A stretch of DNA of 49,305 bases, taken from NCBI GenBank assembly GCA_019455285.1, contig JACFMS010000024.1, positions 1-49,305 on the forward strand, read 5' to 3'. This DNA is from Sphingomonadales bacterium (GTDB taxonomy: Bacteria > Pseudomonadota > Alphaproteobacteria > Sphingomonadales > Govanellaceae). Below are positions 15,845-34,934 of the stretch, piece after piece (position 1 is the stretch's first letter; the number at the start of each line of letters is the position of its first letter). The notes beneath the pieces are model-generated. The model was not told where the DNA came from. It ran no database searches and saw nothing but the letters and a program-made list of their open reading frames with translations. Both the position numbers and the translations under genes were made by a program.

Positions 15845-17338
15845 TCAGTTGGCCTGGCGGCGCAAAAAGGTCGGGATGTCGAGCTGGTCGGCCATTTTCG
15901 TCCGACCGCCGCCGGATACTCGTTCGCCGGCAGTCAGGCGAGCCGGGGATGGCGCGGCGACCGCCGGTTCCCGGCGTTCCACGGTGACCGTGATGCGAGG
16001 CTCGGCCTGCTCGGCGCGGAACAGGTCTGGAGCCTGATCCGCATCCGTCGGGCGACGGCTGCGGCCGGTCATGCGCTCAAACCAGGACGGCCCCTTCTTT
16101 TCGGGCTGCGGCGCGGAGGCCGCCACGGCCTCCATCACCGGCTCGGCCTCGGCCAGACTCTCCACCGCGGGACGACTCAACTCCAGAGGCGCCGGGGCGA
16201 TGAAAAGATCGTCGCTGACCGCTTCTTCCGCCGCCGCCTCGACCCGCGCCGCCACCGGCTCGTTGACCGGTTCAGCGGTGGTGATGCTGGTGACCGCGCG
16301 CTCCACCAGCGAGGCTTTATCGATGCTCGCCATGCGCTGCTCGATGGTCGTGCGCAGGTCCTGCGCCGCCACGCCCGAATCGATGCCGGTCGCCACCACC
16401 GACACCCGCATCTGGCCGTTGAGCGAATCATCCAGCGCCGATCCAACCAGAATGTTGGCGTCAGCGTCCACTTCGGCCCGAATGCGGTTCGCCGCTTCAT
16501 CTACCTCGAACAGCGTAAGGTCCATGCCGCCGGTGATGTTGATCAGCACCCCCTTGGCCCCCTTCATAGATACTTCGTCGAGGAGCGGGTTGGAGATCGC
16601 CGCTTCGGCGGCTTCCAGCGCGCGATTCTCCCCTTCCGCCTCGCCGGTGCCCATCATCGCCTTGCCCATTTCGCTCATCACCGTGCGTACGTCGGCAAAG
16701 TCGAGATTGACGAGGCCGGGCATGACCATCAGGTCGGTCACGCCGCGCACGCCGGAGTGCAGCACTTCGTCCGCCATCATGAAGGCGTCGGCGATGGTGG
16801 TCTTCTCGGTGGCGATGCGGAACAAGTTCTGATTGGGAATGATGATCAGGGTATCGACGAACTTCTGCAGTTGGGCAATGCCGTCTTCAGCCAAGCGCAT
16901 GCGCTTGGCGCCTTCGAATTGGAACGGCTTTGTGACCACGCCGACGGTGAGGATGCCTTTCTCGCGAATCGCTTCGGCGATGATCGGCGCCGCGCCGGTG
17001 CCGGTGCCGCCGCCCATGCCGGCGGTGATGAACACCATGTGGCTGCCGGTGACGTGCTCCATGATTTCAGCCAAGCTTTCCTCGGCCGCCGCACGGCCGA
17101 CGTCGGGCCGCGCGCCGGCGCCGAGGCCTTGAGTAAGATGCGCCCCCAATTGAATGCGCAGGGAAGCCGCAGAGTGCAGCAACGCCTGAGCGTCAGTGTT
17201 GGCGGCGATGAAATCTACGCCCTGTAAATTGGCGCGGATCATGTTGTTGACCGCGTTACCGCCGGCGCCCCCAACGCCGATGACGGTAATGCGCGGCTTG
17301 AGCTCGGTCAGCTCGGGTAAGCTTAGTGATATTGTCAT
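15845..17338 (-). CDS. ftsZ: Cell division GTPase FtsZ
   Basis: FtsZ polymerises at midcell and scaffolds the divisome. The GTP-binding core has [11 protein letters not shown], the tubulin signature [10 protein letters not shown] at about 109-118 and [12 protein letters not shown] long Ala/Glu/Pro-rich linker follows and ends in the conserved C-terminal peptide [12 protein letters not shown], which docks FtsA and other partners. At 497 residues it is longer than enteric FtsZ because of this linker, as in many alphaproteobacteria. A GTG four codons upstream is in frame, but GTGGAG there is the ribosome site, so the ATG at 17338 is the start. The 63-nt gap from ftsA is the largest inside the cluster, leaving room for a private signal. 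Confidence 0.98.
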
Positions 17339-17401
17339 GCTATTCTCCACTACCCCTGTGTCTATGATCTGGTACTCAACACTAAAAACATTGCGCCGCG
17401 C

Positions 17402-18640
17402 TTAGAAATTATCGCGCAGCCAGCGGCCGACGCGCGCCAATCGGCCCTGCGGTTCGCGGGCCGCCAGACGGGCGTAGGCTTCGATGGGTCCGCTGGTGGC
17501 GTAGGTCAGCACGCCCACCGCGCTTGCAAACGCCGGACCCTGCGTCAGATCCGCCAGCCCGCTGACGCCGGAGGGCTGGCCGATCCGCACCCGTTTGTCG
17601 AGAATGCGGCCGGCAAGGTCACGCACGCCCGAAAGTTGCGAGGCGCCGCCGGTAAGCACCAGACGGCGGCCGGCGAGCTTGTCGAAGCCGCTGTCGACCA
17701 GGCGGTCGCGGACCAGCTCGAAGGTTTCTTCGATGCGCGGCCGAATGATGCCGACCAGCATGGAGCGCGGAATGCGGCTGGCGCTGTCGCCATCGGCTTC
17801 GCCAAGCTGCGGCACGTCGATCACCTCGCGATCATCCGCCGGGCCGGCGAGCGCGCTGCCGTAAAGCGTCTTCATCCGCTCGGCGTGGGCAATGGGCGTC
17901 AACAGCCCGCGGGCAATGTCGTTCGTCACATGATGGCCGCCCACCGGCACGACATCGGTAAAGACCAACGCGCCATCCAGAAAAACCGCGATCGACGTAG
18001 TGCCGCCGCCCATGTCAACGACAATGGTGCCAAGGGCTTTTTCGTCTTCCACCAGCGTGGCCAAGCCCGAGGCGTAAGGCGCGGCGACCAGCCCCGCCAC
18101 CTTCAGATGACCACGGTTGACGCAGGCTTCCAGATTGCGCACCGGCCCCGGCGCGGCAGACACCAGATGCATCGTCAAGCTCAAGCGGTCGCCGATCAGC
18201 CCGCGTGGATCCCGCACCCCTTCCGCACCGTCGACGCTAAAGGCAACCGGCATGGCGTGAATGATGTCGCGCCCGTCGGCGTCATAGCCGGCGCGGCCAT
18301 GATCGAGCGCGTGCTGCATATCCACCTGGCCGATTTCATGGCCAGCCACCGAGACGTCCACCGTCACCGCCTCTGACGCAAGATCGCCGCCGGTAACCGC
18401 CACATAAGCCGAATCCACCGCCAAGCCCGCCATGCGTTCGGCGGTGTCCACAGCGGCGCGGATGGAGGTTTCGGTTTCCTCCATGTCGACCACCACCCCG
18501 GACTTGATGCCGGTGGATACCTGATGGCCAATCCCAATGACGCGAAAGCCGCCATCTTCGGTCAGCCGCGCAATGAAGCAGCAAACTTTGGTCGACCCCA
18601 CATCGAGCGCGGCAATTATTTTATCGCGATGCGCTGCCAT
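17402..18640 (-). CDS. ftsA: Cell division actin-like protein FtsA
   Basis: FtsA is an actin-fold ATPase that ties FtsZ filaments to the inner membrane and recruits later division proteins. The 412-residue product opens with ALDVGSTKVCCFIARL (phosphate loop 1), has the VDMGGGTTSIAVF second phosphate loop, and an adenosine-site VLTGGASQLSGV. The final GRLARVGRWLRDNF is the amphipathic membrane-targeting helix. It starts 2 nt after the ftsQ stop. The FtsA-specific 1C domain (EVSVAGHEIG style segment around residue 105) is present. High confidence by motif and position. Confidence 0.97.
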   Translation of the reverse strand: MAAHRDKIIAALDVGSTKVCCFIARLTEDGGFRVIGIGHQVSTGIKSGVVVDMEETETSIRAAVDTAERMAGLAVDSAYVAVTGGDLASEAVTVDVSVAGHEIGQVDMQHALDHGRAGYDADGRDIIHAMPVAFSVDGAEGVRDPRGLIGDRLSLTMHLVSAAPGPVRNLEACVNRGHLKVAGLVAAPYASGLATLVEDEKALGTIVVDMGGGTTSIAVFLDGALVFTDVVPVGGHHVTNDIARGLLTPIAHAERMKTLYGSALAGPADDREVIDVPQLGEADGDSASRIPRSMLVGIIRPRIEETFELVRDRLVDSGFDKLAGRRLVLTGGASQLSGVRDLAGRILDKRVRIGQPSGVSGLADLTQGPAFASAVGVLTYATSGPIEAYARLAAREPQGRLARVGRWLRDNF

Positions 18641-18642
18641 GA

Positions 18643-19563
18643 CTATACGCGTCCTCCCTTAACGCCGGCATCCACTTCCAATTGCCGGCGATGCACTTCC
18701 TCCGCTGTCAGCCGCAAGACCAAGCGATCGGGTTGACGCAGATCGACGATCTGTATCTCCCGATCCAGAATACGGTGCTGCGCCTGCAACTGCGCCAGCC
18801 GTCGCCACGCCTGCGCCTCGCCGCCGTCGGGCAGACGCACCCGCACGCCATTCTTAAACACCACATCCCAGCGCCGATCGGCGACGCGAACCGCCGCCTG
18901 CATATCGCGATAAAGGGTCGGCTCAGCGCGCAAGATCGGCGCCAGGCGCGCCGCGGCGCGCTCCGCGCCGACGCCCACCACTTGCGGCAGATCGGCAAAT
19001 TCGGCCAGGCCGGCGGTAGTGATTACCGCGCCTTCGTCATCAATCAGCGCCAACAGCCCCTGCTGCTGCCACACCGCGATGGGCTTGCGTTCGGTAATCT
19101 GCACCCGCAGATGATTGGGCAGCTCGCGGGCCACCACCACGGACTTCACCCAGCCGATCATGGCCACACGGTTGCGAATCTCATCGATGTCGACAGCGAA
19201 GATCGGCGTCCCCGACGGCACCGCCACGGCTTCCAAGATGTCGGCCCGACTAAGACGCCGTAAGCCGCTGACCGTCACTTCATCGATCACAAGGCCGGTC
19301 TTGATGGCTTGCCTGTCAATCTGCTTGCTCACGCTACCGACCATGTCGGCAATGGCGCCGCTTTGCCAACCAATCAAGGCGGCAATCGCCATAGCGCCAA
19401 TCACCGCCGGTACAGCGATGCGGCGCACCTTTTGCACCCGGCGGCGGCGAACCAGCGTCGCCTCGCGCTCACCGCGGCGGGGTGATGATTCAATCTCCCG
19501 CGAGGCGCGCAGCGAGGAAGTTCGAGTTCTGGGGCCAAAGCCGAGATCGCGTTCCGCTTTCAT
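18643..19563 (-). CDS. ftsQ: Cell division protein FtsQ
   Basis: FtsQ is a bitopic inner-membrane protein linking cytoplasmic and periplasmic division proteins. The 306 residues comprise an Arg-rich cytoplasmic tail (1-48), one transmembrane helix at about 49-66 (IAVPAVIGAMAIAALIGW), a POTRA domain from about 91 (LVIDEVTVSGLRRLSRADIL) and the FtsQ beta domain, with ITERKPIAVWQQQG and DLPQVVG. Its ATG overlaps the ddl stop by four bases and it is followed at 2 nt by ftsA, so production is likely tied to the Mur enzymes. Confidence 0.95.
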   Translation of the reverse strand: MKAERDLGFGPRTRTSSLRASREIESSPRRGEREATLVRRRRVQKVRRIAVPAVIGAMAIAALIGWQSGAIADMVGSVSKQIDRQAIKTGLVIDEVTVSGLRRLSRADILEAVAVPSGTPIFAVDIDEIRNRVAMIGWVKSVVVARELPNHLRVQITERKPIAVWQQQGLLALIDDEGAVITTAGLAEFADLPQVVGVGAERAAARLAPILRAEPTLYRDMQAAVRVADRRWDVVFKNGVRVRLPDGGEAQAWRRLAQLQAQHRILDREIQIVDLRQPDRLVLRLTAEEVHRRQLEVDAGVKGGRV

Positions 19564-20456
19564 CGCTGCACCCCCGCGTCATCAACCAGCCAAGCCACCA
19601 GGTCGGCAAAGGAAATGCCCTTGTGGGCGGCGATCTCGGGCACCAGGGACAGCGGCGTCATGCCGGGCTGGGTGTTGGTTTCCAGGATATAGAATTCGTC
19701 CGCCGCTTCATGGTAGCGGAAGTCCGTGCGCGTCACGCCGCGACAACCCAGGACATGGTGCGCCCGTTCGGCATAGTCGAGCACCCGATCATAGGCCTTG
19801 GCGGCAAGCGGCGCCGGCATCACATGCACGGCCAGGCCCGCGGTGTATTTCGCGGCATAATCATAGAACCCCGATTTGGGACGGATCTCGATAGCGCCCA
19901 GCGCCCGCCCATCCATCACCGCCACCTGAATCTCGCGCCCCGGAATGTAGCGCTCCACCAGCACCCGCGACGGCGCATCGGATAAATCCCAATTGTCGCC
20001 CGGCTGCACGATATGGACGCCAACGCTGGAGCCTTCATTCAAGGGTTTGACCACGAACGGCCGCGCCATCGGCTCTTCTTGCAAAAGCTCATCGCGGCTG
20101 AGCACCCGGCCCTCGGCGCAAGGGATACCGACCCCGGCGAAGAGATGCTTGGCCACCGGCTTATCCATCGCCACCGCCGAGGCCAGAACGCCGGAATGGG
20201 TGTAAGGGATATTGAGAATTTCCAGCAAGCCTTGGATCGCGCCGTCCTCGCCCCAGCGGCCATGGAGCGCATTGAACGCCACGTCGGGCTTGATGCGCGC
20301 CAACACGGCAGCAATATCGCGCTGGACGTCAATTTCGCTGACGCGAAATCCAATCTCGCCCAGCGCCTTGGATACCGCCTTGCCGCTGACCAGCGAAACC
20401 TCGCGTTCAGCTGACCAGCCGCCCATCAGCACCGCGATATGACGTCCTTTCGTCAT
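19560..20456 (-). CDS. ddl: D-alanine--D-alanine ligase
   Basis: Ddl joins two D-Ala residues with ATP, supplying the dipeptide that MurF adds. The 298-residue ATP-grasp protein begins [22 protein letters not shown], contains [19 protein letters not shown], the ATP-binding [13 protein letters not shown], and the metal-binding [20 protein letters not shown]. The frame is open 16 codons upstream, but the ATG at 20456 overlaps the murB stop as ATGA and starts the conserved sequence. Position between murB and ftsQ is the usual DdlB location. Confidence 0.96.
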
Positions 20457-21391
20457 GCGCCGCGTCTCCCGACGGCAGGGCGGCCGATGATGCGGATCTC
20501 CCATTGCAGATCGACGCCGGAGGTCGCCCGCACCCGGCGGCGCACTTCCTCGCCCAGAGTCTCAATATCCTCGGCGGTGGCGTTACCGGTGTTGAGAAGG
20601 AAGTTGCAGTGTTTCTCCGACACCTGCGCGCCGCCGACCCGCAACCCCCGGCAGCCGGCGGCATCGATGAGCTGCCAAGCCCGCGCGCCTGGCGGGTTCT
20701 TGAAGGTGCTGCCGCCGGTACGGGTGCGCAGCGGCTGGCTGTCCTCCCGCGCAGCATTAATTTCTTCCATGCGCGCGGCGATGGCGGCCGGATCATCGGG
20801 CGTACCGGCAAATTCCCCGGCGAGGAAGACCACATCCTCCGCCACATTGATATGGCGGTAGGTAAAGCCCATGTCGTCAGCGGCAAGCCGCAGCCGTTGC
20901 CCGCTCCGGGTAACGGCGTCGGCGGCGAGCAAAATATCGGCAACCTCGCGGCCATACGCCCCGGCATTCATGCGCAGCGCGCCGCCGACGGTGCCAGGAA
21001 TGCCGCGCAGGAATTCCAGGCCGGCCAAACCGGCATCACGAGCAAAGGCGGCGACGCTGACGTCGCTGGCCCCGGCGCCGGCGATCACCACATTGTCGCG
21101 GCGCTTGATGTCGCGGAAAGCGCGGCCCAGACGAATGACCACGCCGTCGACGCCACCGTCGCGCACCAAGAGATTGGAGCCAAGGCCGATCACCGTCACC
21201 GGCACATCCGACGGACAGGCCGCCAGAAACGCCGCCAGATCGTCGGCATCCTCAGGCGTGAACAGAACTTCCGCCAGCCCGCCAACGCGAAACCAGGTCA
21301 GCTCGGCAAGGCTTGCGTTCATCTCAAGCGGACCGCGCGTCGCCGGCAGGCGATCAAGGAGCGTCTCGGCAATGCGGCTGGCCGCCATCAT
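20453..21391 (-). CDS. murB: UDP-N-acetylenolpyruvoylglucosamine reductase
   Basis: MurB reduces UDP-GlcNAc-enolpyruvate to UDP-MurNAc with NADPH and FAD. The 312 residues hold [15 protein letters not shown], the FAD-binding [18 protein letters not shown], and [18 protein letters not shown]. The segment [20 protein letters not shown] carries the catalytic serine region of the type I/II family, and the C-terminal [10 protein letters not shown] completes the fold. Four-base overlaps join it to murC upstream and ddl downstream. Confidence 0.96.
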
Positions 21392-22824
21392 GCGCGCCTT
21401 CCCGCCGTTTTCTGGTTGCCGATCCGGGCGGACAACTGTTCCGGCAGCGCATAGGCCCAGGCCGAAATGGATCCCGCGCCCAGGCAGATCACCACGTCGC
21501 CGGCGCCGGCTTCCGCGGCCACCATTTCGGCCAGCGCCTCGGGACCGGACAACGGCAACACCCGACGATGGCCGCGCGCGCGCAAGCCCTCGACGAAAGA
21601 GTCGCGGTCGATGCCGGCGATCGGTTCCTCGCCGGCGGTATAGACGTCAGCGACGATCACCGTATCGGCGTCGTTAAAGCAGGTGCAGAATTCCTCGAAC
21701 AGGTTTTTCAGCCGGGTGAAGCGATGCGGCTGCACCACCGCGACAACCCGGTTGGCGTAGGCCTGCCGCGCCGCTTTTAATACCGCCGCAATTTCAACCG
21801 GATGATGCGCGTAGTCGTCGATAATACTGATACCACTCACTTCGCCGACCTTGGTGAACCGTCGCTTGACGCCGGCGAAACCGGCGAACGCCTGCTTTAC
21901 TATATCGTCAGCGATTCCCATTTCAACAGCAACGGCGATTACCGCCAAAGAATTTTGCACGTTATGGACGCCGGGCATCGGCAAGATCACGCCTTCGATG
22001 CGGCGAATGTTGTCGGTCTGGCGATCGCGTATTTCCACATCATAGTGGGCGCAGCCGTTGGTAAAGCCGAGGTTCACGCCCCGCACATCCGCCTGCGGGC
22101 TGAAGCCATAGGTTACGATGCGGCGATCGATGACGCGGCCGATTAGCGCTTGCACTTCCGCATGGTCGATGCACAGCACGGCGAAACCGTAAAATGGCAC
22201 GTTCTCCACAAAGCGCAGGAAGGCGGCTTTCTCAGCCTCAAAGTCGCCGTAGAAATCGAGATGCTCAGGATCGATATTGGTCACCACCGCGATGGTCGAG
22301 GGCAGCTTGACGAAGGTGCCATCGGATTCGTCGGCCTCCACCACCATCCAATCGCCGCTCCCCAGCCGCGCATTGGTGCCATAGGCATTGATGATGCCGC
22401 CGTTGATCACTGTCGGGTCATAGCCGGCGCTATCGAACAGCGCCGCCATCATCGAAGTGGTGGTGGTCTTGCCGTGGGTGCCGGCCACCGACACGCACCA
22501 CTTCAGACGCATCAGTTCGGCCAGCATTTCGGCGCGGCGCACGACGGGGGTAAGCTGAGCGCGGGCGGCGACAAGTTCCGGGTTGTCGGCCTTGATGGCG
22601 GTGGACACCACCACCACCCGCGCCTCGCCGAGGTTTTCCGCCTTATGGCCGATGGCCACTGGCACGCCCAGGGCGCGCAGGCGCTTGACATTGGCGTTTT
22701 CCGAAATGTCGCTGCCTTGCACGTCATAGCCGAGGTTGTGCATGACTTCGGCGATGCCGCTCATGCCGATGCCGCCGATGCCAACGAAATGAATGCGGCC
22801 GATTTGGAATGGCATGCGGCTCAT
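21388..22824 (-). CDS. murC: UDP-N-acetylmuramate--L-alanine ligase
   Basis: MurC adds L-Ala to UDP-MurNAc. The 478-residue Mur ligase has the N-terminal UDP-binding [17 protein letters not shown], the P-loop [12 protein letters not shown] at about 114-125, and [13 protein letters not shown]. The C-terminal domain has [12 protein letters not shown] and [17 protein letters not shown], both typical of MurC. It overlaps murG and murB by four bases each. Length and all ligase motifs are intact. Confidence 0.97.
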
Positions 22825-23990
22825 GGCCGTCCTCCGGTCATGGCCAAGCCGTGATCGCGGCCCGGCAGCGGCAGAATATCCAACGGACCGAACGCCACCA
22901 CCACTTGCTCCACCAGATCAGCCAGCGCCGCCGCGGCATCGACGCGACCGGTGGCGGCGGCGGCGTGAGCTGCTGCTGCGAGTTTGTAGGAATTGCGCGC
23001 GAAATTCTGCAATATCTTGGCCAATGCAGGGGGCGTAAAATCTTCCTGCCGGATCACCCACGCGCCGCCCGCCGCCACCAGTTCCTGGGCGTTCGCCCAT
23101 TGGTGATCGTCGGTGGCGGTGGGCAACGGCACCAGAATCGACGGCCGCCCGGCGGCGCTCAGTTCGGTAACGGTGGAAGCGCCGGCGCGCGCGATCACCA
23201 GATGGGCTTCGGCCAGCCGTTGCGGCAAGTCATCAAGAAAGGCCGCCGTTTCCACCCGCACCTTGGTCGCCGCGTAAGCCGCACGCACCGCCGGCATGTC
23301 TTCCTCCCGGCATTGCTGGACCACGCTCAAGCGCTGCTGCGCCGCGCGCGGCAGCGCGGAGATCGCCGCCGGCACCACCTCGCTTAAAATTTGCGCGCCC
23401 TGGCTGCCGCCGATCACCAACAGCCGGAACTCGCCATCGGGCTCGGGCGGCGTGTAGGCGGAGCCGGAGAGCGCCGCCACCGCGCGGCGAATAGGATTGC
23501 CGGTGACCACCACGTATTGGCGATCGGCGGGTGGACGGCGCTCCGTCTCCTCGAATGATAACGCCACCGCCGCCGCCAGGCGGGACAGAAACCGGTTGCT
23601 GCGGCCGAACACGGCGTTTTGTTCATGCAGACACAGCGGAATGCCGAGGAGCGCCGCCGCCAGCCCCGTCGGCAGCGATGGATAACCGCCGAAGCCGACA
23701 ACACAGGCAGGACGCGTCCGGCGCAGGATGGCGATCGCCTGAACGATGCTCAGGAGCATGCTCCAGATGCCGAGCAGCCGACCGATGAGACCGCCCTGCA
23801 ATCTCGCGCTGTTCAGGTCGTGTACCGGCAGGCCGGGAAAGAGATGCGCATACCGCAGGCCGCGCCAGTCGGTAACCAGCATCGGACGGTGACCGCGCCG
23901 CGCCAGCTCCACCGCCAAGGCGTGCGCCGGAATGACGTGACCGCCGGTGCCGCCAGCGGCCAGCGCGATGGTGTAGCGCCGGCGCATCAT
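22821..23990 (-). CDS. murG: UDP-GlcNAc:undecaprenyl-PP-MurNAc-pentapeptide GlcNAc transferase
   Basis: MurG converts lipid I to lipid II on the cytoplasmic face of the membrane. The 389-residue GT-B enzyme has the glycine loop [12 protein letters not shown] at about 11-22, [29 protein letters not shown], and the donor-site [23 protein letters not shown]. The open frame extends 17 codons upstream, but ATG at 23990 overlaps the ftsW stop as ATGA and is the natural start; a second ATG follows directly. The 15 residues after the catalytic fold form a His/Pro-rich tail. Confidence 0.96.
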
Positions 23991-25129
23991 GCCCGCCTCC
24001 TGGGGATAGGCCGGGCCGGTACATAGTTCTGCTGCCGGCACAATGCCAGAATCATGCCCATGGTGACGCCGATGGCGAGCATGGAGGAGCCGCCATAACT
24101 GACAAACGGCAGCGTCATGCCCTTGCTGGGCAGCACCGCCAGATTGACGCCGATGTTGATGTAAGCCTGCAAGCCGAACTGCATCAACAGGCCCGAAGTG
24201 GCCAGAAACACGAAGGGGTCGTGTTCCTTCACCAGATTGATCAGGCCGCGCACCACGATGACGGCGAACACCAACAACAGCCCGAGGCAGAGGATGACGC
24301 CGAACTCTTCGCCGGCCACCGCAAAAATAAAATCGGTGTGCGCGTCCGGCAGCACCCGCTTGACCAGTCCTTCCCCAGGGCCGCGTCCGAACAGACCGCC
24401 GGTGCGAAAGGCATTCAAGGCGGTGTCGATCTGATAGGTATCGCCGGTGGAGGGATCAAGGAAGCGGTCGATGCGGCTGGTCACATGGGGCAAAAATACG
24501 TAAGCGGCGATCACGCCAAGGACGCAGACAACGCCACACCCCAACACCCAGATCATCGGCAGGCCGGCGAGGAAAAACTGGCCAAGCCAGACCAGAGTGA
24601 TGAGGATGGTCTGGCCGATATCGGGTTGCAGCACCAACGAAGCCGCCACCGCCAGATAAAGGGCAATGGCGATCTTGCGGCCGGGAAAGCTCGGCTCGCG
24701 CATTTGCTCGGAAAACATCCAGGCGCACACCACCACGAAGGCAGGCTTTAAAAACTCCGAGGGTTGCAGGGTAAAGCTGGCGATCGGCAGCCAACGCTGC
24801 GAGCCCTTGATTTCCGGCCCCACGAACGCGGCGGCCAACACCAGGCCTAAGCAGATCGGCAGCATAACGACGGCGATGCGGCGCACCGATTTCGGCGAGG
24901 CCAGCGAGATGGCGAACATGATGCACAGCGTGATCGCCAGATAGACCACCTGCCGTTCGGCGAAATGGAAAGAATTAAGCCCCAGCCGCTCGGCCACGGC
25001 GACGCTGGCGCCGATGGTCAAGAGCAGGCCCGAGCCGATGAGAATGAACAGGCTCAACAAGAGCCAGCGGTCCACCGTCCACCACCATTGGCCGAGAAGA
25101 CTGCGGTCGGTGCGGGTGAACGGCGCCAT
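23987..25129 (-). CDS. ftsW: Lipid II polymerase FtsW (SEDS family)
   Basis: FtsW is the septal glycosyltransferase of the SEDS family working with FtsI. The 380-residue polytopic protein has about ten membrane helices, a short cytoplasmic N-terminus (FTRTDRSLLGQWWWTVD), GSQRWLPIASFTLQPSEFLKP, the periplasmic loop around YQIDTALNAFRTGGLFGRGPGEG, and the C-terminal LPFVSYGGSSMLA, all diagnostic. The start overlaps the murD stop as TGATG. It is encoded between murD and murG as in most proteobacteria. Confidence 0.96.
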   Translation of the reverse strand: MAPFTRTDRSLLGQWWWTVDRWLLLSLFILIGSGLLLTIGASVAVAERLGLNSFHFAERQVVYLAITLCIMFAISLASPKSVRRIAVVMLPICLGLVLAAAFVGPEIKGSQRWLPIASFTLQPSEFLKPAFVVVCAWMFSEQMREPSFPGRKIAIALYLAVAASLVLQPDIGQTILITLVWLGQFFLAGLPMIWVLGCGVVCVLGVIAAYVFLPHVTSRIDRFLDPSTGDTYQIDTALNAFRTGGLFGRGPGEGLVKRVLPDAHTDFIFAVAGEEFGVILCLGLLLVFAVIVVRGLINLVKEHDPFVFLATSGLLMQFGLQAYINIGVNLAVLPSKGMTLPFVSYGGSSMLAIGVTMGMILALCRQQNYVPARPIPRRRA

Positions 25130-26544
25130 CAGCGTCCCTCCCCGGCAAATGCCAGTTCGGTATGCGTCACAACGCGCCCGACCAGTTCCTTGAAGGCGCG
25201 GCCGCGCGCCTCGTAGTCCGAAAACTGATCGAACGAGGCGCAGGCCGGCGACAGGAGCACCGTTGCCGGCGCGCCGTCTTTCATGGCGTCGGCATGAGCC
25301 ATGGTCACTGCTGCGTTAAGATCGCCGGCGATCACATGATCGACTTTGCCATTTAACGAGGCGGCAAAATCCTTGGCTGCCTCGCCGATGAGGTAGGCGC
25401 GGCGAATGCGCGGAAACAGCGGCGATAACTCCGATAGGTCTGCGGTCTTCGGCCGGCCGCCGGCGATCCAGTAGATCCGCTCGAAGGTGGCGAGCGCCTT
25501 TGATGCGGCATCAACATTGGTGGCCTTGGAGTCGTTGACGAATTCGATGTTTCCCGCCACCGCCACCCGCTCGATACGGTGTTCGAGCCCCGGAAACGTC
25601 ATCAGGGCGCGAAACGCCGCGCCCGCCGGCACGCCCAGCGCGCGCGCCGCGGCGTAGGCCGCAGCGGCATTCTGCCAGTTATGCCGGCCGCGCAGCGCCA
25701 CTGCGCCGGCAAGATTGCCGATCGGCACCATCGCTCCTTCGATGCCGTCCAGCAGAATACCATCCTTGACCCCGATGCCGCCGCCCGGCACATAATCGGC
25801 GGAAATCGGGATCACCCGCTGATTGTGCGCGGCGGCAAGCCGGGACGCAAAGCGGATGCCATGGGCGTCGTCAACGCCGATCACCGCCGCATGGTTTGTC
25901 GTCTGGCCGGCAAAAAGCCGTTCCTTGACCGCTTCATAGTGCGCCATATCGCCATGACGGTCGAGATGATCGGGGGTAATATTGAGAAGCACAGCAACGT
26001 CGGGGACGAAGCTCTGCATCAGGTCGATCTGGTAGGACGACACCTCCAACACATAAATGCCGCCCTCGGGCAAGGGATCGAGATCGAGAACGGCGCGGCC
26101 GATATTGCCGCCCACCGCCGCCGCATGATCGGTTTTTTGCAACACATGGCCGATGAGCGCCGTGGTCGTCGACTTGCCGTTGGTGCCGGTCACCGCCACC
26201 ACTGAAGCAATCGGCAGATCGGCGCGGGCCTGGGCGAACAGCTCCATGTCGCCGATGACCGGCACGCCGGCTGCTTGCGCAGCGGCAATATAGGGATGCG
26301 GCGCGGGATGGGTGAGCGGCACGCCGGGACTGACCACAAAAGCCGCCACCTCGCGCCAGTTGACGGCGCCAAGATTGATAACTTCCGCGCCCAGCTTTTT
26401 TGCCGCGGCGCACTTCTCGGCATTGTCATCACCGGCGAGCACCCGCGCGCCGCCGCTGACGAGCGCCTCGACGCTGGCCAGACCGGAACGGGCGAGACCA
26501 AACACCGCTACCGTCTTGCCCTGATATGCATGCACTGTAATCAC
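25129..26544 (-). CDS. murD: UDP-N-acetylmuramoyl-L-alanine--D-glutamate ligase
   Basis: MurD adds D-Glu to UDP-MurNAc-L-Ala. The 471-residue product has a Rossmann-like start (GKTVAVFGLARSGLASVEAL), the ATP P-loop GTNGKSTTTAL at about 120-130, NITPDHLDRHGDM, and the C-terminal FVNDSKATNVDAASKAL motif. The frame is open to an ATG within mraY, but GTG at 26544 sits 8 nt after the mraY stop with TGAGG upstream and yields the standard N-terminus, so I prefer it. Confidence 0.94.
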   Translation of the reverse strand: MITVHAYQGKTVAVFGLARSGLASVEALVSGGARVLAGDDNAEKCAAAKKLGAEVINLGAVNWREVAAFVVSPGVPLTHPAPHPYIAAAQAAGVPVIGDMELFAQARADLPIASVVAVTGTNGKSTTTALIGHVLQKTDHAAAVGGNIGRAVLDLDPLPEGGIYVLEVSSYQIDLMQSFVPDVAVLLNITPDHLDRHGDMAHYEAVKERLFAGQTTNHAAVIGVDDAHGIRFASRLAAAHNQRVIPISADYVPGGGIGVKDGILLDGIEGAMVPIGNLAGAVALRGRHNWQNAAAAYAAARALGVPAGAAFRALMTFPGLEHRIERVAVAGNIEFVNDSKATNVDAASKALATFERIYWIAGGRPKTADLSELSPLFPRIRRAYLIGEAAKDFAASLNGKVDHVIAGDLNAAVTMAHADAMKDGAPATVLLSPACASFDQFSDYEARGRAFKELVGRVVTHTELAFAGEGR

Positions 26545-26552
26545 CCGCGACC

Positions 26553-27641
26553 TCAGCGTAACTTCAACGTAGACAAGCCAACGATCGCCAGAATGACGGC
26601 GATGATCCAAAAGCGGATCACCACCGTCGATTCCGCCCACCCCTTTTCTTCATAGTGATGATGCAAGGGGGCCATGCGGAACACCCGCTTGCCGGTCAGC
26701 TTGAAAGACGCCACCTGGACCATCACCGACACCGTCTCCAGCACAAACAATCCGCCGACAATGGCGAGCACGATTTCATGCTTAGTGACGACGCCGACCG
26801 CGCCCAGCGCCCCGCCCAACGACAGCGAGCCGGTGTCGCCCATGAACACCATGGCGGGCGGCGCGTTAAACCACAAAAAACCCAACCCCGCGCCGACGAT
26901 GGCGCCGCAAAATACCGCCAGCTCGCCCGAACCCGGCACCGGCAGGAGCTGCAGATACTGGGCAAAAACCAGATTGCCCGCCACATAGGCGATCAAGGCA
27001 AAGGTCGCGGCGGCGATAATCACCGGCATGGTCGCTAAGCCATCCAAACCGTCGGTGAGATTGACCGCGTTGCCGGCGCCAATGACGACGATAAGGCCAA
27101 ATAAAATGTACGCCGGCCCAAAATCGAGGATGGCGTTCTTTAAGAGCGGAATCGCCACCTTGCCGGAAAGCTCCGGCCCCGAGGCCAGCATGATCCAAAT
27201 GATGGCGACGCCGGCGATGAGGCCTTCTATCAATAATTTCAATTTGCCGGGAAAGCCCTTGGGATTGCGCTTGGTGACTTTCAGATAGTCGTCGAGAAAG
27301 CCGACGCCGCCGAACCCCAAGGTGACCAGCAGCACCGCCCAGACATACTGGTTGGTCAAGTCCGCCCAAAGAAGCGTGCCCACCGACAGCGCCAACAAAA
27401 TCAGCACGCCGCCCATGGTCGGCGTGCCCTGCTTGGTGATGAGATGGCTTTGCGGCCCATCGTCGCGAATGGGCTGGCCTTTCTTCTGCTTGCTCTTCAG
27501 CCAGCGGATGAGCTGCGGGCCGACAAGAAAGCTGACCAGAAGCGCCGTCATCACCGCGCCGCCGGTGCGGAAAGTGAGGTACTTGAATACATTAAAAAGC
27601 GGCACCGAGCTGCTTAAGGGATAAAGGAGGTGATAGAGCAT
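26553..27641 (-). CDS. mraY: Phospho-N-acetylmuramoyl-pentapeptide transferase
   Basis: MraY makes lipid I by transferring phospho-MurNAc-pentapeptide to undecaprenyl phosphate. The 362-residue, roughly ten-helix membrane enzyme shows [20 protein letters not shown], the Asp-rich FLDDYLKV near 115, the catalytic [13 protein letters not shown] at 191-203, and the cytoplasmic histidine loop [13 protein letters not shown]. All expected catalytic Asp/His residues are present. It begins 9 nt after the murF stop. Confidence 0.97.
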
Positions 27642-27650
27642 CGCCGCCTC

Positions 27651-29099
27651 CTATCCGGTCGCCGCCAGACGCCGCTCGCCGCGATCAAGGGCAAGGAGCG
27701 CATTGACCACCTTGACCATCGCCATCGACAGCGAACCCTTCACCATCACCACATCGTTGGGCATGAGGTTGGCGATGAGCGTCCGCGCCGCCTCGTCCGC
27801 CGTCGCCACCTGAGCAAGAAGCTGATTGGCGGGCAGCGCTTTCGCCAAGTGCGACATCAGCTCGCCGACCGTGATCACCTGATCGACATCGGCCTCGGCG
27901 ATGGCGGCAGCAAGGCCGGCATGCAGGCGTGGGCCGGCTTCGCCTAATTCACGCATGTCGCCCAACACAGCGATGCGGCGGCCGCGGCTGGACTTCACCG
28001 ATCCCGGCGCGGCCACGGTGATATTGCCCAGGGTATCGAGCGCGGCGCGCATGGAGGCCGGATTGGCGTTGTAGCTTTCATCGACCACCAGAATGGAATA
28101 GCGGCCATCGACTCTGACCTTATGGCGCTGACCACGGCCCTTGACCGGCATCATATCGGCGAGCGCCAAGGCCGCCAGACCCAGATCGGCGTCAAAGGCC
28201 TTCACCGTCGCCAGCACCGCCAAGCTGTTTTGCACCCAGTGCCGGCCCGGCGCGCCCACCTTGTAGATGACAGTCTCGTCCAGCACCCGGGCCGTGATGC
28301 AGCTTACATCCTCCAGGAGCGCATGCTTCATCACCCGCACGTCGGCGTCCTCAGCAAAACCGTAGCTGATGATGCGAGCCACCCCCGCCGCCTTGGCGAT
28401 GGCGGCAAGGTGATCGAAGAAGCGATTATCACGGTTGAGAATGGCGACGCCGCCCGGTTCTAGTCCTGCAAAAATTTCCGCCTTGGCGTCGGCGATGGCT
28501 TCCAGGCTCGGAAAGAAAGCGCTATGCGCCTGCTCGACGCCAGTAATGAGCGCCACCTGCGGCCGCACCAGCCGGCTGAGCGGCGTCAGTTCGCCAGGAT
28601 GATTCATGCCCAGTTCAAAGACGCCAAATTCGCTCGCCGCCGGCATGCGGGCCAAACTTAAAGGAACCCCGATGTCGTTATTGAAGCTTGCCGCGCTGGC
28701 GTGCGTCGTCTGGCCGCGACCGAGCGCCAGGCGCAGCGCCTCCTTGGTGCTGGTCTTGCCGACGCTGCCGGTCACCGCGACGATCTTGGCGGTAGCGCGC
28801 GACCGCGCCGCGCGCGCCATGCGGGTCAGCGCCTCTCGCGTATCGTTGACCAGGATGAGCGGTCCCTTGGCGTCGCCGACAACCCGCGACACCAGAGCGG
28901 CGGCGGCATCCTTGGCGAACGCTGTCGGGACGAACTCATGCCCGTCCGCCTGCGTGCCTTGCAGGGCGACGAACAGATCGCCGGCTTCCAGCGTGCGGGT
29001 ATCGATGGAAATGCCGAATACTTCCCAGCCGTCGCCGCCAATGATCTCACCGCCGGTAACCGCTGCGATGTCGCTGGCCGTCCACAACGCAGTGCTCAT
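27651..29099 (-). CDS. murF: UDP-MurNAc-tripeptide--D-alanyl-D-alanine ligase
   Basis: MurF adds D-Ala-D-Ala to complete the pentapeptide. In 482 residues it has the N-terminal IDTRTLEAGDLFVAL, the P-loop TGSVGKTSTKEAL at about 110-122 (GSxGKT is typical of MurF), ELGMNHPGELTPLSRLVRP, and YNANPASMRAALDTL in the C-terminal domain. It overlaps murE by four bases. It depends on the product of ddl, ten genes further on in the same cluster. Confidence 0.96.
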   Translation of the reverse strand: MSTALWTASDIAAVTGGEIIGGDGWEVFGISIDTRTLEAGDLFVALQGTQADGHEFVPTAFAKDAAAALVSRVVGDAKGPLILVNDTREALTRMARAARSRATAKIVAVTGSVGKTSTKEALRLALGRGQTTHASAASFNNDIGVPLSLARMPAASEFGVFELGMNHPGELTPLSRLVRPQVALITGVEQAHSAFFPSLEAIADAKAEIFAGLEPGGVAILNRDNRFFDHLAAIAKAAGVARIISYGFAEDADVRVMKHALLEDVSCITARVLDETVIYKVGAPGRHWVQNSLAVLATVKAFDADLGLAALALADMMPVKGRGQRHKVRVDGRYSILVVDESYNANPASMRAALDTLGNITVAAPGSVKSSRGRRIAVLGDMRELGEAGPRLHAGLAAAIAEADVDQVITVGELMSHLAKALPANQLLAQVATADEAARTLIANLMPNDVVMVKGSLSMAMVKVVNALLALDRGERRLAATG

Positions 29100-30550
29100 C
29101 GCCTGCCTCCCGCCGTTTCCAGGAGCGAGAGCGCGTCCCGAACTTCCACCACGTCGTTGAACTCCTTGACTTCGCTGCCGATAATCTGGCCGGTTTCATG
29201 GCCTTTGCCGGCGACCACCAACACATCATCCGCTGTCAGCGAGATCACCGCCGCTCTTATCGCCTCGCGGCGGTCGCCGATTTCGTGGGCCGCCGGACAG
29301 CCGGCGAGAACTTCCTGACGAATGAGCGCCGGCACTTCCGAGCGCGGATTGTCGTCGGTGACGAACACCCGGTCGGCGAGGTCCGCCGCCACCTGACCCA
29401 TCAACGGCCGCTTACCGCGATCACGATCGCCGCCGCAGCCAAATACCACCACAAGTTTGCCGCGGGTGTGCGGACGCAATGCGGTAAGCACGTTGCCCAG
29501 CGCATCCGGCGTGTGCGCGTAATCGACGTAAACGCGCGCGCCTGCCGGATGCCGCCCGGCAAGCTGCAAGCGTCCCGGCACGGCGCGTAAGTGCTGAATC
29601 GCCTCAATGACCGCCTCCGCCGCGCCGCCGCAACCGATGACCAAGCCGGCGGCCACCAGCGCGTTGGTGGCCTGGAAAGTGCCCACCAGCGGCAGCGTCA
29701 AATCACGAACCTGGCTGCGATAAGCGATGGTCAGCACTTGTCCGCCTTCGACGGGTTGACGGGATAACAGCCGCAAATCACCCTCGCCGCCGACGCCGAT
29801 GACCTTATGGCCGCGCGCCCAGCACAGGCTTTCCAATTCTGCGCCGTAGGGATCGTCGAGATTGATCACCGCGATGCCGCCCGGGCGCATCACTTCGCCA
29901 AACAGCCGCGCCTTGGTGAAGAAGTAGTCTTCCTCGCTTTTGTGATAGTCCATGTGATCGCGGCTGAGGTTGGTGAACGCCGCCGCGCGCAAATTCAGGC
30001 CATCGAGACGAAACTGCGCCAGGCCGTGACTGGAAGCCTCGCAGGCCACGTGCTCGATGCCGCGCTCCTTCAAATCTCGCAAGGCCTCATGGAGGGTAAT
30101 CGGATCAGGCGTCGTCAACTGCAACGGCTTTTCATAGCCTGGCGCCATGACGCCGAGCGTGCCGATGCTGGCCGACGGGAAACCCAGTTGCTGCCAGATC
30201 TGACGGGCAAAGCTCGCCACCGAGGTCTTGCCGTTGGTGCCGGTCACCGCGGCGATGGTATCCGGTTGCGGGCCATAGAAGCGCGCCACCAGGGAGGCGA
30301 AGCGGCGACGCGGGTTGGTTGCCGCCAGCCGATAGACTTCACCGTCGGGAATCTGCGTATCGGGCGCGGTCAGCACCGCCACCGCGCCGCGGGCGATGGC
30401 GTCGGCGACATAGCGCGCGCCATCGGTCTTGGTGCCGGGAAAAGCGGCGAACAGATAGCCGGGGCGCACTCGGCGGCTATCTTCCGCCAAGCCGGCGATC
30501 TCCAGGACGCTCGCTCGTCCATTGCCGTCGATGAGTTCCGAAAGCAGCAT
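29096..30550 (-). CDS. murE: UDP-MurNAc-L-alanyl-D-glutamate--2,6-diaminopimelate ligase
   Basis: MurE adds the third peptide residue. The 484-residue protein contains EDSRRVRPGYLFAAFPG, the P-loop VTGTNGKTSVASF from about 102, FTNLSRDHMDYHKSEEDY, and VDYAHTPDALGNVL. The sequence DDNPRSE near residue 400 carries the DNPR signature that marks enzymes using meso-diaminopimelate rather than lysine, as expected for a Gram-negative wall. It starts 1 nt after the ftsI stop. Confidence 0.97.
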   Translation of the reverse strand: MLLSELIDGNGRASVLEIAGLAEDSRRVRPGYLFAAFPGTKTDGARYVADAIARGAVAVLTAPDTQIPDGEVYRLAATNPRRRFASLVARFYGPQPDTIAAVTGTNGKTSVASFARQIWQQLGFPSASIGTLGVMAPGYEKPLQLTTPDPITLHEALRDLKERGIEHVACEASSHGLAQFRLDGLNLRAAAFTNLSRDHMDYHKSEEDYFFTKARLFGEVMRPGGIAVINLDDPYGAELESLCWARGHKVIGVGGEGDLRLLSRQPVEGGQVLTIAYRSQVRDLTLPLVGTFQATNALVAAGLVIGCGGAAEAVIEAIQHLRAVPGRLQLAGRHPAGARVYVDYAHTPDALGNVLTALRPHTRGKLVVVFGCGGDRDRGKRPLMGQVAADLADRVFVTDDNPRSEVPALIRQEVLAGCPAAHEIGDRREAIRAAVISLTADDVLVVAGKGHETGQIIGSEVKEFNDVVEVRDALSLLETAGGRR

Positions 30551-30551
30551 C

Positions 30552-32291
30552 CTATTCCTCTCTCACCGGCAACAGCAGCGCGTTGCGGATGGCGTTTTCC
30601 TGATCCTGGCGCGGGCTGACGCCCAGCATCGGTCCGATGCGGGCGATGACGCGGCCGACCACCGGCGCCGCCGTCCAGCCGCCGGTGGCGTAGCCGAAGG
30701 TTTCCGGCGTGCCCTTGGGCTCGTCAATGATGGCAAGCACCACGTAGCGCGGTTCATCGGTCGGGAAGGTGGCAATGAAAGATGACAGCAAAGCATTGCG
30801 ACGATAGCCGCCGGCCGCGGATTTCTCGGCGCTGCCGGTTTTGCCGCCAACCTCGAAGCCCGGCACGTCTGCTTTCCCGCCAGTGCCTTCGATCACCGCC
30901 AAGCGCAACAGCCGCCGCATGGTGGCGCTGGTTTCGGAAGACAAAACCCGCCGCGCTTCAACGCTGGTGGAATTATCGGCATCCTGCGCCAGCAAGGTAG
31001 CGGGAATGAGACGGCCGCCGTTGACCACCGCCGCCATGCCGGCGGCAAGATGCAGCGGCGTGATGGCGATGCCATGACCGAAAGCGACAGTCATGGTGCT
31101 GATCTCGCGCCAGGGATGGGGCAACAGCGGCTCGGCTGCTTCCGTCAACTCGATCTGCGGCCGCTTCAGAAGCCCAAGACGATCGAGATAGGCGCGCTGG
31201 GTTTCGGCGCCGATTTCCATGCCCATGCGCGCGGTGCCGATATTGGAGGAGTGGATGAACACCTCCGGCAGGCTCATCCAGCGCGCCTTGGCATGGTAGT
31301 CATTGATGGTGAAGCGGGCGATTTTTAACGGCTTCGTCGCATCGTAGGTCGACTCAAGACGCGCATGACCGCTATCGAGCGCCATGGCGACGGTAAAGGT
31401 TTTCAAGCCCGAGCCCAATTCATAGACGCCCTGAACGGCGCGGTTGAACAGCGTCTCCTTGCGCGAGGCTTTTGGCTCGTTGGGGTCATAGTCCGGCAGC
31501 GAGACCATGGACAACACCTCACCGGTGCGAGCATCGAGCACCAGTCCCGCCGCGCCGATGGCGGAAAAGGCGTCAACCGCATTGGCCAGCTCCTCGCGCA
31601 AAATGTGCTGCACCCGCACATCGAGGGCGAGCTTGAGCGGCTCATGCAACGAGTGCGGATTCATCAAGCGGCTGTCAAAGAAACGCTCGATGCCGGCCAA
31701 CCCTCTGCCGTCGATATCGACGAAGCCCAGCACATGCGCCGCCAGCCGGCCTTGCGGATAAACGCGGCGGTCTTCATCCTCGAAGGCGAACCCCGGGATG
31801 CCGAGGCTGTTGATGCGCCACTTTTCCGCGGGCGTCAGGTTGCGCTTGATCCACACAAAGCGCGAATCGGCGGACAAGCGGTTGACAATATCGGCGCGGT
31901 TGATATCAGGCAGCGCCACCTGCAACTTATCAAGGGCGTCATCGACATCGATGACGCGCTTAGGGTCGGCGTAAAGCGACGCGGTTTTCAGATTGGTCGC
32001 CAGCACCACGCCGTTGAGATCGACGATATCGGCGCGGGCGGTCAGTACCGGCGCGCGGCCTTGGGCGGCGATGGTGGTTTCCACCACGCGCTCAAAAAAC
32101 CCGAGATCAAGCAGGCGCACGCCCATGACCACAAAACCGATGAAGAACATGGCGGCGGTGACAAGCACCCGATTGCGCGCCACTTCCATGGCTTCCTTGC
32201 GCACGCCGTCGATCCGAAAACGGCGCGCGCCCCGCGCCAGGGGCGGCGGGGCGTCGCGGCGGTCGGGTGATGGCCGCTGTCCGCTAATCAT
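30552..32291 (-). CDS. ftsI: Septal peptidoglycan transpeptidase FtsI (PBP3)
   Basis: FtsI cross-links septal peptidoglycan. The 579-residue class B penicillin-binding protein has a cytoplasmic tail, one membrane helix at about 42-62 (VLVTAAMFFIGFVVMGVRLL), a pedestal domain, and the transpeptidase domain with all three motifs: SxxK as SGLK (Ser294), SSN at 348-350, and KTG at 484-486. Its start overlaps ftsL by eight bases; an in-frame Met at residue 35 is a weaker alternative that still precedes the membrane helix. It pairs with FtsW encoded in the same cluster. Confidence 0.96.
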   Translation of the reverse strand: MISGQRPSPDRRDAPPPLARGARRFRIDGVRKEAMEVARNRVLVTAAMFFIGFVVMGVRLLDLGFFERVVETTIAAQGRAPVLTARADIVDLNGVVLATNLKTASLYADPKRVIDVDDALDKLQVALPDINRADIVNRLSADSRFVWIKRNLTPAEKWRINSLGIPGFAFEDEDRRVYPQGRLAAHVLGFVDIDGRGLAGIERFFDSRLMNPHSLHEPLKLALDVRVQHILREELANAVDAFSAIGAAGLVLDARTGEVLSMVSLPDYDPNEPKASRKETLFNRAVQGVYELGSGLKTFTVAMALDSGHARLESTYDATKPLKIARFTINDYHAKARWMSLPEVFIHSSNIGTARMGMEIGAETQRAYLDRLGLLKRPQIELTEAAEPLLPHPWREISTMTVAFGHGIAITPLHLAAGMAAVVNGGRLIPATLLAQDADNSTSVEARRVLSSETSATMRRLLRLAVIEGTGGKADVPGFEVGGKTGSAEKSAAGGYRRNALLSSFIATFPTDEPRYVVLAIIDEPKGTPETFGYATGGWTAAPVVGRVIARIGPMLGVSPRQDQENAIRNALLLPVREE

Positions 32292-32772
32292 GCTGCCGCT
32301 CCGTCAGCGTGGTATGAATGCGAACCAGTAAGTCGTTGCCAGGGTCATGCCTGACTTCCTGGTAGCGTTCTTCCGCCTCCTCCCGGTCTGGCGCAGGCGC
32401 AGGCGTTGGCGCCGGGCGCAGGGCCGGCGCTCGCACCGGCGTCGGCTGCACAATCCTGAAATCATCGGCCTGCGCCACCACGGTGGAAGGATTGTCGCGC
32501 AGCGGCACTTCTTCGATCGACCCGATGATTTGCCCGGCCTGGGTGGGACGCAGCGCCAGATAGCGATTGCCCAGCGTCTCCAGCCGTTCCGGCCGCGCCA
32601 GATAGGTCCATTCGGCGCGCAGCACCTTGATCGCCGCCTCGTCGGCGGTGATCTGGCTTTTGAGCGCCCGCACCTCTTCCTGCACGCGTTCGGTATTATA
32701 CTTCAATTGGTATAGCCCGACACCGGCGGCAACGACGACCGCCAGGGCGGCGATGTTGGCAAGCCTGATCAT
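32284..32772 (-). CDS. ftsL: Cell division protein FtsL
   Basis: FtsL is a small bitopic protein that forms the FtsQLB complex and activates FtsWI. The 162-residue product begins [20 protein letters not shown] (short cytoplasmic tail plus membrane helix), followed by a coiled coil with [19 protein letters not shown] and [17 protein letters not shown], then a Pro/Ala/Glu-rich tail of about 60 residues. Primary sequence conservation is low, so the call rests on topology and on its place between rsmH and ftsI. The ATG at 32772 overlaps the rsmH stop as ATGA. Confidence 0.88.
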
Positions 32773-33725
32773 AGGGCTCTCTCCAGGGGCCAAGGGGCGG
32801 CCGCGGTACGGCAGGCGGCGCGCAGACGGGCGGAGCGGGCGCGCGGGTTCAGCGCCGCTTCCTCCTCGCTCGGCCGCACGGCTTTTTTCGTCATAAGGGT
32901 AAAACTTGGCGGGGTTAAGGCGACATTGGGGCGGTGACGCGACGGGCCGCCGACCTCGCCGGAGCGCTGCCGCAGGAACGCCTTGACGATACGGTCCTCC
33001 AGCGAATGGAATGACACCACGATGAGCCGACCGCCGGCGCCGATGAGGCGCTCGGCCGCCGCCAGTCCACCCTCCAATTCGCCCAGTTCATCGTTGACCG
33101 AAATCCGCAACGCCTGGAAGGTGCGGGTCGCGGGATGGATGGCCTGATGCCCCGGCACGGCGCGCTCGACGATCTTTGCCAACTCGCCGGTGCGAGTGAT
33201 CGGGCGGTCGCCGCGCACCGCGACGATGGCGCGGGCGATGCGCCGCGAGTGACGCTCTTCGCCGTACTTGTAGATCAGATCAGCCAGTTCCTCGGCGCTG
33301 AGCGAGTTGACGAGATCGGCGGCGCTCGGCCCCTCGCGCCCCATGCGCATATCCAGGGGACCGTCGGCTTGAAAGGAAAAGCCGCGCCCCGCCTCATCCA
33401 GTTGCATGGAGGAGACGCCAAGATCAAGCACCACGCCATCGACGCGGGACACGCCAACGCCGCCCAAAAGCTCGATCATGTCGCCAAAGCGGCCGGAAAG
33501 AAAATGAAAGCGCTCGCCATAAGCCGCCGTCAGCGCCGCCGCATAGGGCGCCACCGTCGGATCGCGGTCGATGCCATAGACCGTGCACTTGGCGGCATCC
33601 AGGATGGCGCGGCTGTAGCCGCCGGCGCCGAAGGTGCCGTCGACGAAAACCTCACCGTCGCGGGGATTTAAGAACTCCACCACTTCCCGGCGCAGCACGG
33701 AGAGATGGGGCGGCTTTGAACTCAT
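32769..33725 (-). CDS. rsmH: 16S rRNA (cytosine-1402-N4)-methyltransferase
   Basis: RsmH (formerly MraW) methylates C1402 of 16S rRNA in the decoding centre. The 318-residue protein begins [15 protein letters not shown], has the SAM-binding [16 protein letters not shown] at about 27-42, [21 protein letters not shown], and [19 protein letters not shown], plus the [13 protein letters not shown] segment near the end. It lies second in the dcw cluster, overlapping mraZ and ftsL by four bases each. Confidence 0.97.
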
Positions 33726-34171
33726 GCCAGGCCCCCGTTCTGCGCCAGATTTTTCTGCACCAGCGCCTGCGCCTTGGCATTGAACGCCTCTAACGCGGCG
33801 GGTTGCCAGATCTGGAAGGTTTTGCCGCGCCCGACAAACGCGGCGTGTTCGTCGATGCCGGCATGGGCCAACAGATCGGCGGGCAACAGGATGCGGCCCT
33901 CGGGATCAAAGGCGAGCTGACGGCTGTCAGCGAGAATCGACGCCGACAGCGCCTGCCGGGGATCGCTCAACGACGCCACTTCGTCCACTTCCGCCGAATG
34001 GCGCTCCATGTAGGCGAGATCCGCGCCGATGATCGCCGGCAACAGCGGCGAGCGATAAAGCACCACGCCCGGCCACTCGCCGTTCGCCAGCGCGGCGCGG
34101 AAACTGGCGGGGACGGAAACCCTGCCCTTCCGGTCGACCTTGTTGACGAATGTGGACAGAAACAACGGCAT
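33722..34171 (-). CDS. mraZ: Transcriptional regulator MraZ
   Basis: MraZ is an AbrB-fold DNA-binding protein that in Escherichia coli represses its own dcw operon by binding TGGG repeats. The 149-residue product has two SpoVT-AbrB halves, marked by [17 protein letters not shown] at about 12-28 and [18 protein letters not shown], each with the DxxGR core. It is the first gene of the cluster. A ladder of TGGG boxes sits 120-190 bp upstream of its start, supporting autoregulation. The leader is about 160 nt. Confidence 0.95.
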
Positions 34172-34295: not shown

Positions 34296-34360
34296 TGGGT
34301 TCTCATTGGATTACCATGGGCACCTATGGGCGTCAATGGGATTACATGGTATAAAATGGG
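34296..34360. promoter_or_regulatory. MraZ operator: seven TGGN boxes, six at an exact 10-bp period
   Basis: On the plus strand TGGG occurs at 34296, TGGA at 34307, TGGG at 34317, 34327 and 34337, TGGT at 34347 and TGGG at 34357. The last six are exactly 10 bp apart and the first is 11 bp away. Escherichia coli MraZ is known to bind TGGG repeats separated by about 5 bp, also a 10-bp period. The boxes run from the dcw promoter spacer into the early transcribed region and lie on the strand opposite to mraZ. Confidence 0.8.
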
Positions 34361-34378
34361 TGTTAACAAGACGTTAAA
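34341..34378 (-). promoter_or_regulatory. Candidate dcw (mraZ) promoter
   Basis: Reading on the minus strand, TTGTTA (34369-34364) and TGTAAT (34346-34341) are separated by 17 bp. An overlapping alternative is TTTAAC (34378-34373) with TTATAC (34354-34349) at 18 bp. Either puts transcription start about 160-170 nt before mraZ. The element is interleaved with MraZ boxes and the CtrA-type site. Confidence 0.55.
34362..34377 (-). promoter_or_regulatory. Perfect CtrA-type site at the dcw promoter
   Basis: The minus strand reads TTAACGTCTTGTTAAC, which is TTAA-N7-TTAAC, the full consensus of the alphaproteobacterial cell-cycle regulator CtrA. It overlaps the -35 region of the candidate dcw promoter. 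CtrA control of division genes is established in Caulobacter; its use here is inferred. Confidence 0.6.
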
Positions 34379-34449: not shown

Positions 34450-34486
34450 ATCGTTGTTATTGGGACGACATGGGAAAAATGAGTAG

Positions 34487-34934
34487 GGGTCAGATGGTCT
34501 ATAAGCCGGGTTCTGTCCTCGGGAGATGATCCCGATGGACGGCCATTCCTCTCGAACGCCCGTTGCCGGACGCCTCTAGCAACCTACCCGGACGGCGGTT
34601 CGGAAGATGCAACCTGCCGCTCGTGGCGGCGCGCCGTCCCTATTTGGTCTTGCTCCCGGTGGGGTTTGCCCTGCCGCTCTTGTTACCAAGCGCGCGGTGC
34701 GCTCTTACCGCACCATTTCACCCTTACCCGCCAAACCGACCGAAGCCGCCGGCGGGCGGTATATTTTCTGTGGCACTTTCCCTGAAGTCGCCTTCGCCGG
34801 ACGTTATCCGGCACCGTATCTCCGGGGAGCCCGGACTTTCCTCCCCACCACCAAAAAGGGCTTAAAGCCATCGCCGCTTGCATACCTGCGCAAGCCCTTT
34901 TTAGCGGTGGGGCGGCCGTCCGACCATCTGACCC
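34487..34934 (-). ncRNA. rnpB: RNase P RNA (bacterial type A)
   Basis: This is the catalytic RNA that trims the 5' ends of tRNA precursors. On the minus strand it shows the universal segments GAGGAAAGTCCGGGCTCC, the GGTAAGGGTGAAA / GCGGTAAGAGCGCACCG block, GAGCAAGACCAAATAGGG, CGGGTAGGTTGCTAGAGG and the 3' element GAGGACAGAACCCGGCTTAT. The ends pair perfectly for 13 bp (GGGTCAGATGGTC with GACCATCTGACCC), forming helix P1 and fixing both ends to within a few bases. A long AAAAAGGGCTT / AAGCCCTTTTT stem forms an extended P3. The 448-nt size is at the upper end of the type A range. Confidence 0.96.

Follow-up and report, generated by a model that had tools for sequence, protein, structure and literature searches.

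A perfect CtrA-type box stands at a fixed place at the head of the host's dcw (division and wall) cluster, is conserved in several families, and is accompanied in the host by CtrA and a ChpT-type protein. The fixed place of the box and its retention in several related families suggest that CtrA helps to time the dcw cluster from its head. We consider it probable that the box belongs to a composite tandem promoter, controlled by CtrA and MraZ, which drives the cluster and in which CtrA activates the first of two promoters, here called P1.

The box and its genomic setting

The window, meaning the whole 49,305-base stretch of DNA that was analysed, contains an exact match to the CtrA-type pattern TTAA-N7-TTAAC, with no mismatches, at positions 34377-34362 of the minus strand (TTAACGTCTTGTTAAC), and the sequence has the TTAA-N7-TTAA(C) form of a CtrA full site. 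This is the sole perfect TTAA-N7-TTAA in the window and lies on the same strand as the dcw cluster. When the window was shuffled, TTAA-N7-TTAAC occurred 0.02 times on average, and two out of 100 shuffles reached one occurrence. No internal CtrA sites were detected within the dcw cluster, where a one-mismatch scan returned only the head box and two places overlapping it.

The initial annotation had described a perfect CtrA-type box that occurs once and abuts the last MraZ box. Both the perfect match and its contact with the CCCAT array (34306-34360, minus strand), whose repeats we take to be MraZ boxes, were borne out; its single occurrence holds for the window only. Across the host genome, TTAA-N7-TTAAC gave nine strand matches at eight places, compared with 12 for the reversed control pattern, and TTAA-N7-TTAA was found at 26 places, compared with 24 for the control. 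Since these counts are no higher than those of the controls, the genome-wide excess that might mark a CtrA regulon is not seen in the host and was dropped as evidence for the box, and its distinguishing features are its place and its conservation. We also considered a CenR site; its TGA-N8-TGA motif (PMC9275681) is absent from TTAACGTCTTGTTAAC by eye.

The box heads a one-strand cluster that runs on the minus strand from mraZ to ftsZ. It opens with mraZ (33722-34171; Pfam PF02381 and NCBIfam MraZ models), rsmH, also called mraW (32769-33725; Pfam PF01795), ftsL (32284-32793; NF049847), ftsI, a penicillin-binding protein transpeptidase identified by profile match (30552-32291), and a Mur ligase gene that we name murE by its position (29096-30550). 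These are followed by murF, mraY, murD, ftsW, murG, murC, murB, ddl, ftsQ, ftsA and ftsZ (15845-29099), which are contiguous and mostly overlap or lie a few nucleotides apart. Between ftsZ and bamD, a 205-amino-acid ORF (15122-15739) has no Pfam match, and no gene there was recognised as lpxC. The neighbour directly upstream of mraZ, which shares its strand, is rnpB, which encodes the RNase P RNA (34486-34931; Rfam RF00010, 312.9 bits); a pairing of the RNase P RNA gene with mraZ is also listed for Pelagibacter (PMC2704228).

The host CtrA matches the NCBIfam equivalog NF045991 at 425.4 bits (cut-off 350) and shares approximately 78% identity over 226 residues with Caulobacter CtrA. An HPTransfase of the ChpT type, which we take to be ChpT, and a DUF1153 protein, presumably of the SciP family, are also encoded. 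The region upstream of ctrA itself carries TTAA half-sites and no perfect N7 site. Beyond the window, 25 sites were placed in the host genome; for 16 of these, flanking ORFs (20 in total) were compared with Pfam. One perfect TTAA-N7-TTAA lies between flgI and fliX (G000:C13:94564; L080:1501) and another upstream of a CheZ gene (G000:C13:102217; L081:1501). By their gene contexts, these two would be as expected for a CtrA flagellar regulon, since CtrA controls such genes elsewhere. The sequence TTAACAAGGAGTTAAC (G000:C38:59467-59483; L089) matches on both strands and is found between genes for a transglutaminase-like cysteine proteinase (Peptidase_C93) and a PAS-domain protein.

Position and conservation among relatives

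All four genomes of the host family (f1) keep the box, as TTAACGTCTTGTTAAC in two of them and as TTAATGTCTTCTTAAC and GTAATATCTCGTTAAC in the others; it is perfect in three, and GTAATATCTCGTTAAC has one mismatch in the left half-site. The nearest named records to the host are the MAGs PRO5 (L013) and J090 (L014), the latter representing in the family alignment a contig shared with L072 (a minus-strand match). Further families also carry the box, and it is kept among relatives at the spacing that a CtrA site requires. Neither of the two findings that the initial annotation named as refuting it, a host without ctrA and loss of the site in close relatives, was therefore encountered.

We collected 212 alphaproteobacterial mraZ upstream regions, of which 191 were left after removal of 21 near-duplicates, including the window itself (a near-duplicate of L013). 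L048 and L067 had too little upstream sequence, and the short regions L103 and L173 stayed in. Those from the wider class represent about one per genus and derive from MraZ matches listed down to an E-value of about 2e-22, so divergent MraZ proteins are under-sampled. TTAA-N7-TTAA occurs in 24 of the 191 regions, compared with 0 to 11 for the fifteen other spacings between 1 and 16 nt; the second-commonest spacing is 6 nt (11/191). One region, L251 (G338), had been added after an earlier pattern match and is therefore not an unbiased row; without it the count is 23/190. A TTGAC anchor, which resembles a -35 element, is present in 110 of the 191 regions, and 16 of these carry the N7 box 10-60 nt upstream of it. 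The distance is exactly 26 nt in ten cases and 25, 29, 35, 36, 36 and 48 nt in the others. Among ten further genomes of the host order, six carry a perfect box, in each case at 26 nt, and three of the four box-less genomes have no TTGAC anchor.

The position of the box was then scanned throughout the order (196 genomes), any gap of N14-44 between box and CCATTGAC being allowed. This yielded 41 matches in 39 genomes, compared with five for the reversed control; the places found are comparable with mraZ coordinates for part of the genomes only, and five matches look off-locus. In 33 of the 41, the distance to TTGAC is exactly 26 nt; these comprise 28 of the 32 genomes of family f180 (the other four lack the box), three of the four f1 genomes, and one genome each of f179 and f175, related genomes here not being independent events. 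In three further f175 genomes the box is located at 36 nt, an additional turn of the helix away. Beyond the order, matches were obtained in 13 of the 23 genomes of family f156; 12 of these have the box at 25 or 26 nt, and one f156 genus has the box in none of its eight genomes. The 26-nt register was seen in five families (f1, f175, f179, f180 and f156).

The box is absent from most other Alphaproteobacteria sampled. A class-wide CtrA box with mismatches was considered and rejected: in the 93 anchored box-less regions, one-mismatch sites are not enriched at spacing 7 (eight sites, the same number as at spacing 8), which indicates that the wiring is limited to certain lineages. An exact pattern with three CCAT boxes was found in four of 385 class genomes, the host's own included, a low count because degenerate boxes are missed.

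Several other features were observed at mraZ. In L170 (G190, family f68), the CtrA-type box and -35 are arranged differently, with just 4 nt between TTAATTATTTGTTAA and the TTGACG downstream of it. Many box-less alphaproteobacterial mraZ regions (e.g., L015-L021 and L135) have TTACT or TACTA at a fixed place 10-17 nt upstream of CCATTGAC; of the 93 anchored box-less regions, 17 have TTACT at -16 and seven have it at -15. This element could represent the -10 of a different upstream mraZ promoter or the site of an additional regulator. By comparison of shared words, one order genome (L109/G425) has the same mraZ upstream region as Kordiimonas aquimaris (L041).

Candidate promoters and competing explanations

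Candidate P1 comprises a -35 element TTGTTA (34369-34364), which overlaps the 3' half of the CtrA site, a 17-nt spacer and a -10 element TGTAAT (34346-34341), all on the minus strand, which puts the CtrA box between about -43 and -29. This -10 lies 16 nt after the TTAA of the box, the offset with the best mean fit to TATAAT among aligned relatives. Candidate P2, some 31 nt further downstream, has its -35 element TTGACG (34336-34331) embedded between MraZ boxes as part of a conserved C[CA]ATTGAC, and a -10 element GGTAAT (34315-34310) that aligns with TGATAT or TGTTAT of relatives. The earlier claim that the box lies over the -35 is thus correct for candidate P1, but the -35 of P2 is not covered. 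P2, being uncovered, could drive the cluster without CtrA. An automatic promoter scan of the window flagged neither P1 nor P2. The array at 34306-34360 has six CCCAT units (one of them ACCAT, the last TCCAA) with a period of 10, as anticipated for a promoter regulated by MraZ; CCCA-N6-CCCA arrays lie upstream of mraZ in most relatives, and the mraZ product is itself recognised by NCBIfam.

For both promoters, CtrA binding, activation, timing and the MraZ loop, we infer the following scheme. Phosphorylated CtrA would bind the full site, overlap the poor -35 of P1 and recruit RNA polymerase, giving extra dcw transcription while CtrA is active, that is, in late, predivisional cells by analogy with Caulobacter. 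P2 would provide basal transcription. MraZ, the product of the first gene, would bind the CCCAT array, which covers the -10 of P1 together with the whole of P2, and damp both promoters.

An alternative that we regard as unlikely is that CtrA binds the box but acts on P2 from upstream, centred near -67 to -69 in a class I-like manner, P1 being no promoter at all. The position lock is to the TTGAC element of P2, the three f175 genomes with the box at 36 instead of 26 nt keep the helical face, and of the two candidate promoters P2 has much the wider conservation, C[CA]ATTGAC being found in 127 of the 212 mraZ upstream regions. Full sites in Caulobacter, however, sit near the -35 of the promoter that they activate (PMC4287350), and a TATAAT-like hexamer follows the box at a fixed 16 nt. 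In 33 aligned sequences, this hexamer has the best mean match to TATAAT (3.97 of 6) among offsets 6-21; as a P1 -10 it is variable among relatives, with 23 of the 33 reaching four matching positions and nine reaching five.

Somewhat more doubtful again is a repressive role, in which CtrA would block RNA polymerase at P1 or compete with MraZ. The box overlaps the candidate -35, and CtrA represses minCD in S. meliloti (PMC4433202), but the half-sites through which it represses in Caulobacter overlap the -10, and full sites near the -35 activate (PMC4287350, PMC6180460).

AT-rich stretches are common upstream of promoters, and the box might be an UP-like element that carries TTAA twice by coincidence, or else the site of a different regulator; we find either improbable. 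Regulators reported at the mraZ of Rhodobacter include NtrX (PMC7240162) and, by a ChIP signal that is doubtful, CenR (PMC9275681), but the CenR and NtrX motifs (TGA-N8-TGA and GCA-N9-TGC) are unlike the box. Strong enrichment is confined to spacing 7, the CtrA spacing, and in the 33 aligned sequences the spacer is variable at its first four positions, with T at positions five and six in 29 and 32 sequences, respectively; the half-sites are conserved, in part because the search required them. Because of the position lock, with 26 nt fixed in 33 order genomes and an equivalent arrangement in a family outside the order, we reject a functionless chance match in an AT-rich intergenic stretch as very unlikely indeed, despite genomic motif counts at background.

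We therefore return to a composite promoter in which CtrA activates P1. Its generalization to a set of families within the Alphaproteobacteria, with CtrA timing the whole of the division and wall cluster through one composite promoter that locks a CtrA full site, two promoters and an MraZ operator array in one register, seems to us about evenly balanced between true and false. If it is true, the division output of CtrA would be set at the cluster head instead of at individual fts genes, and evolution would have retained this arrangement or acquired it repeatedly. Mutating the dcw-head promoter should then break the link between the cell cycle and the synthesis of wall and septum.

Relation to known CtrA systems

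The box resembles Caulobacter full-site promoters in its motif, its spacing and its place relative to the candidate -35, and the host CtrA is orthologous. Full sites near the -35 are described for Caulobacter genes that peak in predivisional cells (PMC4287350), and the fla2 promoters of R. sphaeroides also have a CtrA site near the -35 (PMC6180460). In Caulobacter, however, the CtrA motifs named for division genes are those of ftsK, ftsQ and mipZ (PMC4287350), whereas the host box heads the whole mraZ-to-ftsZ cluster and is interlocked with MraZ boxes.

Genes with predicted CtrA motifs in S. meliloti include mraZ (PMC3616915, PMC4414408), which makes mraZ a predicted CtrA target there as in the host. 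That assignment is a matrix prediction, and the relevant passages of these reports describe no fixed register to an MraZ-box promoter. In S. meliloti, ChIP-seq revealed direct control by CtrA for no characterised division genes other than minC and minD (PMC4433202). In Hyphomonas neptunium, the TTAA-N7-TTAAC consensus was obtained by ChIP-seq and division genes are likewise direct targets, but these are ftsAKQZ and ftsB (PMC7200025). A two-component regulator at the dcw head is also known from R. sphaeroides, where NtrX binds upstream of mraZ and controls mraZ-mraY and ddlA-ftsA (PMC7240162); there the regulator is NtrX, with the motif GCA-N9-TGC, and the CenR ChIP signal at mraZ was judged to be possibly indirect or an artefact (PMC9275681).

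Within the passages of the literature that link CtrA with mraZ or dcw, we found no account of an mraZ promoter that carries a CtrA box in a locked position. The initial annotation had proposed a wiring different from that of Caulobacter; the difference stands with respect to Caulobacter, the S. meliloti ChIP-seq data and the Hyphomonas targets, but a CtrA motif at mraZ had already been predicted in S. meliloti. The division targets of CtrA are rewired between species, and those studied so far differ in their targets. A locked dcw-head box, which most members of some families possess and other families lack, offers a clean natural experiment on the rewiring of a cell-cycle master regulator.
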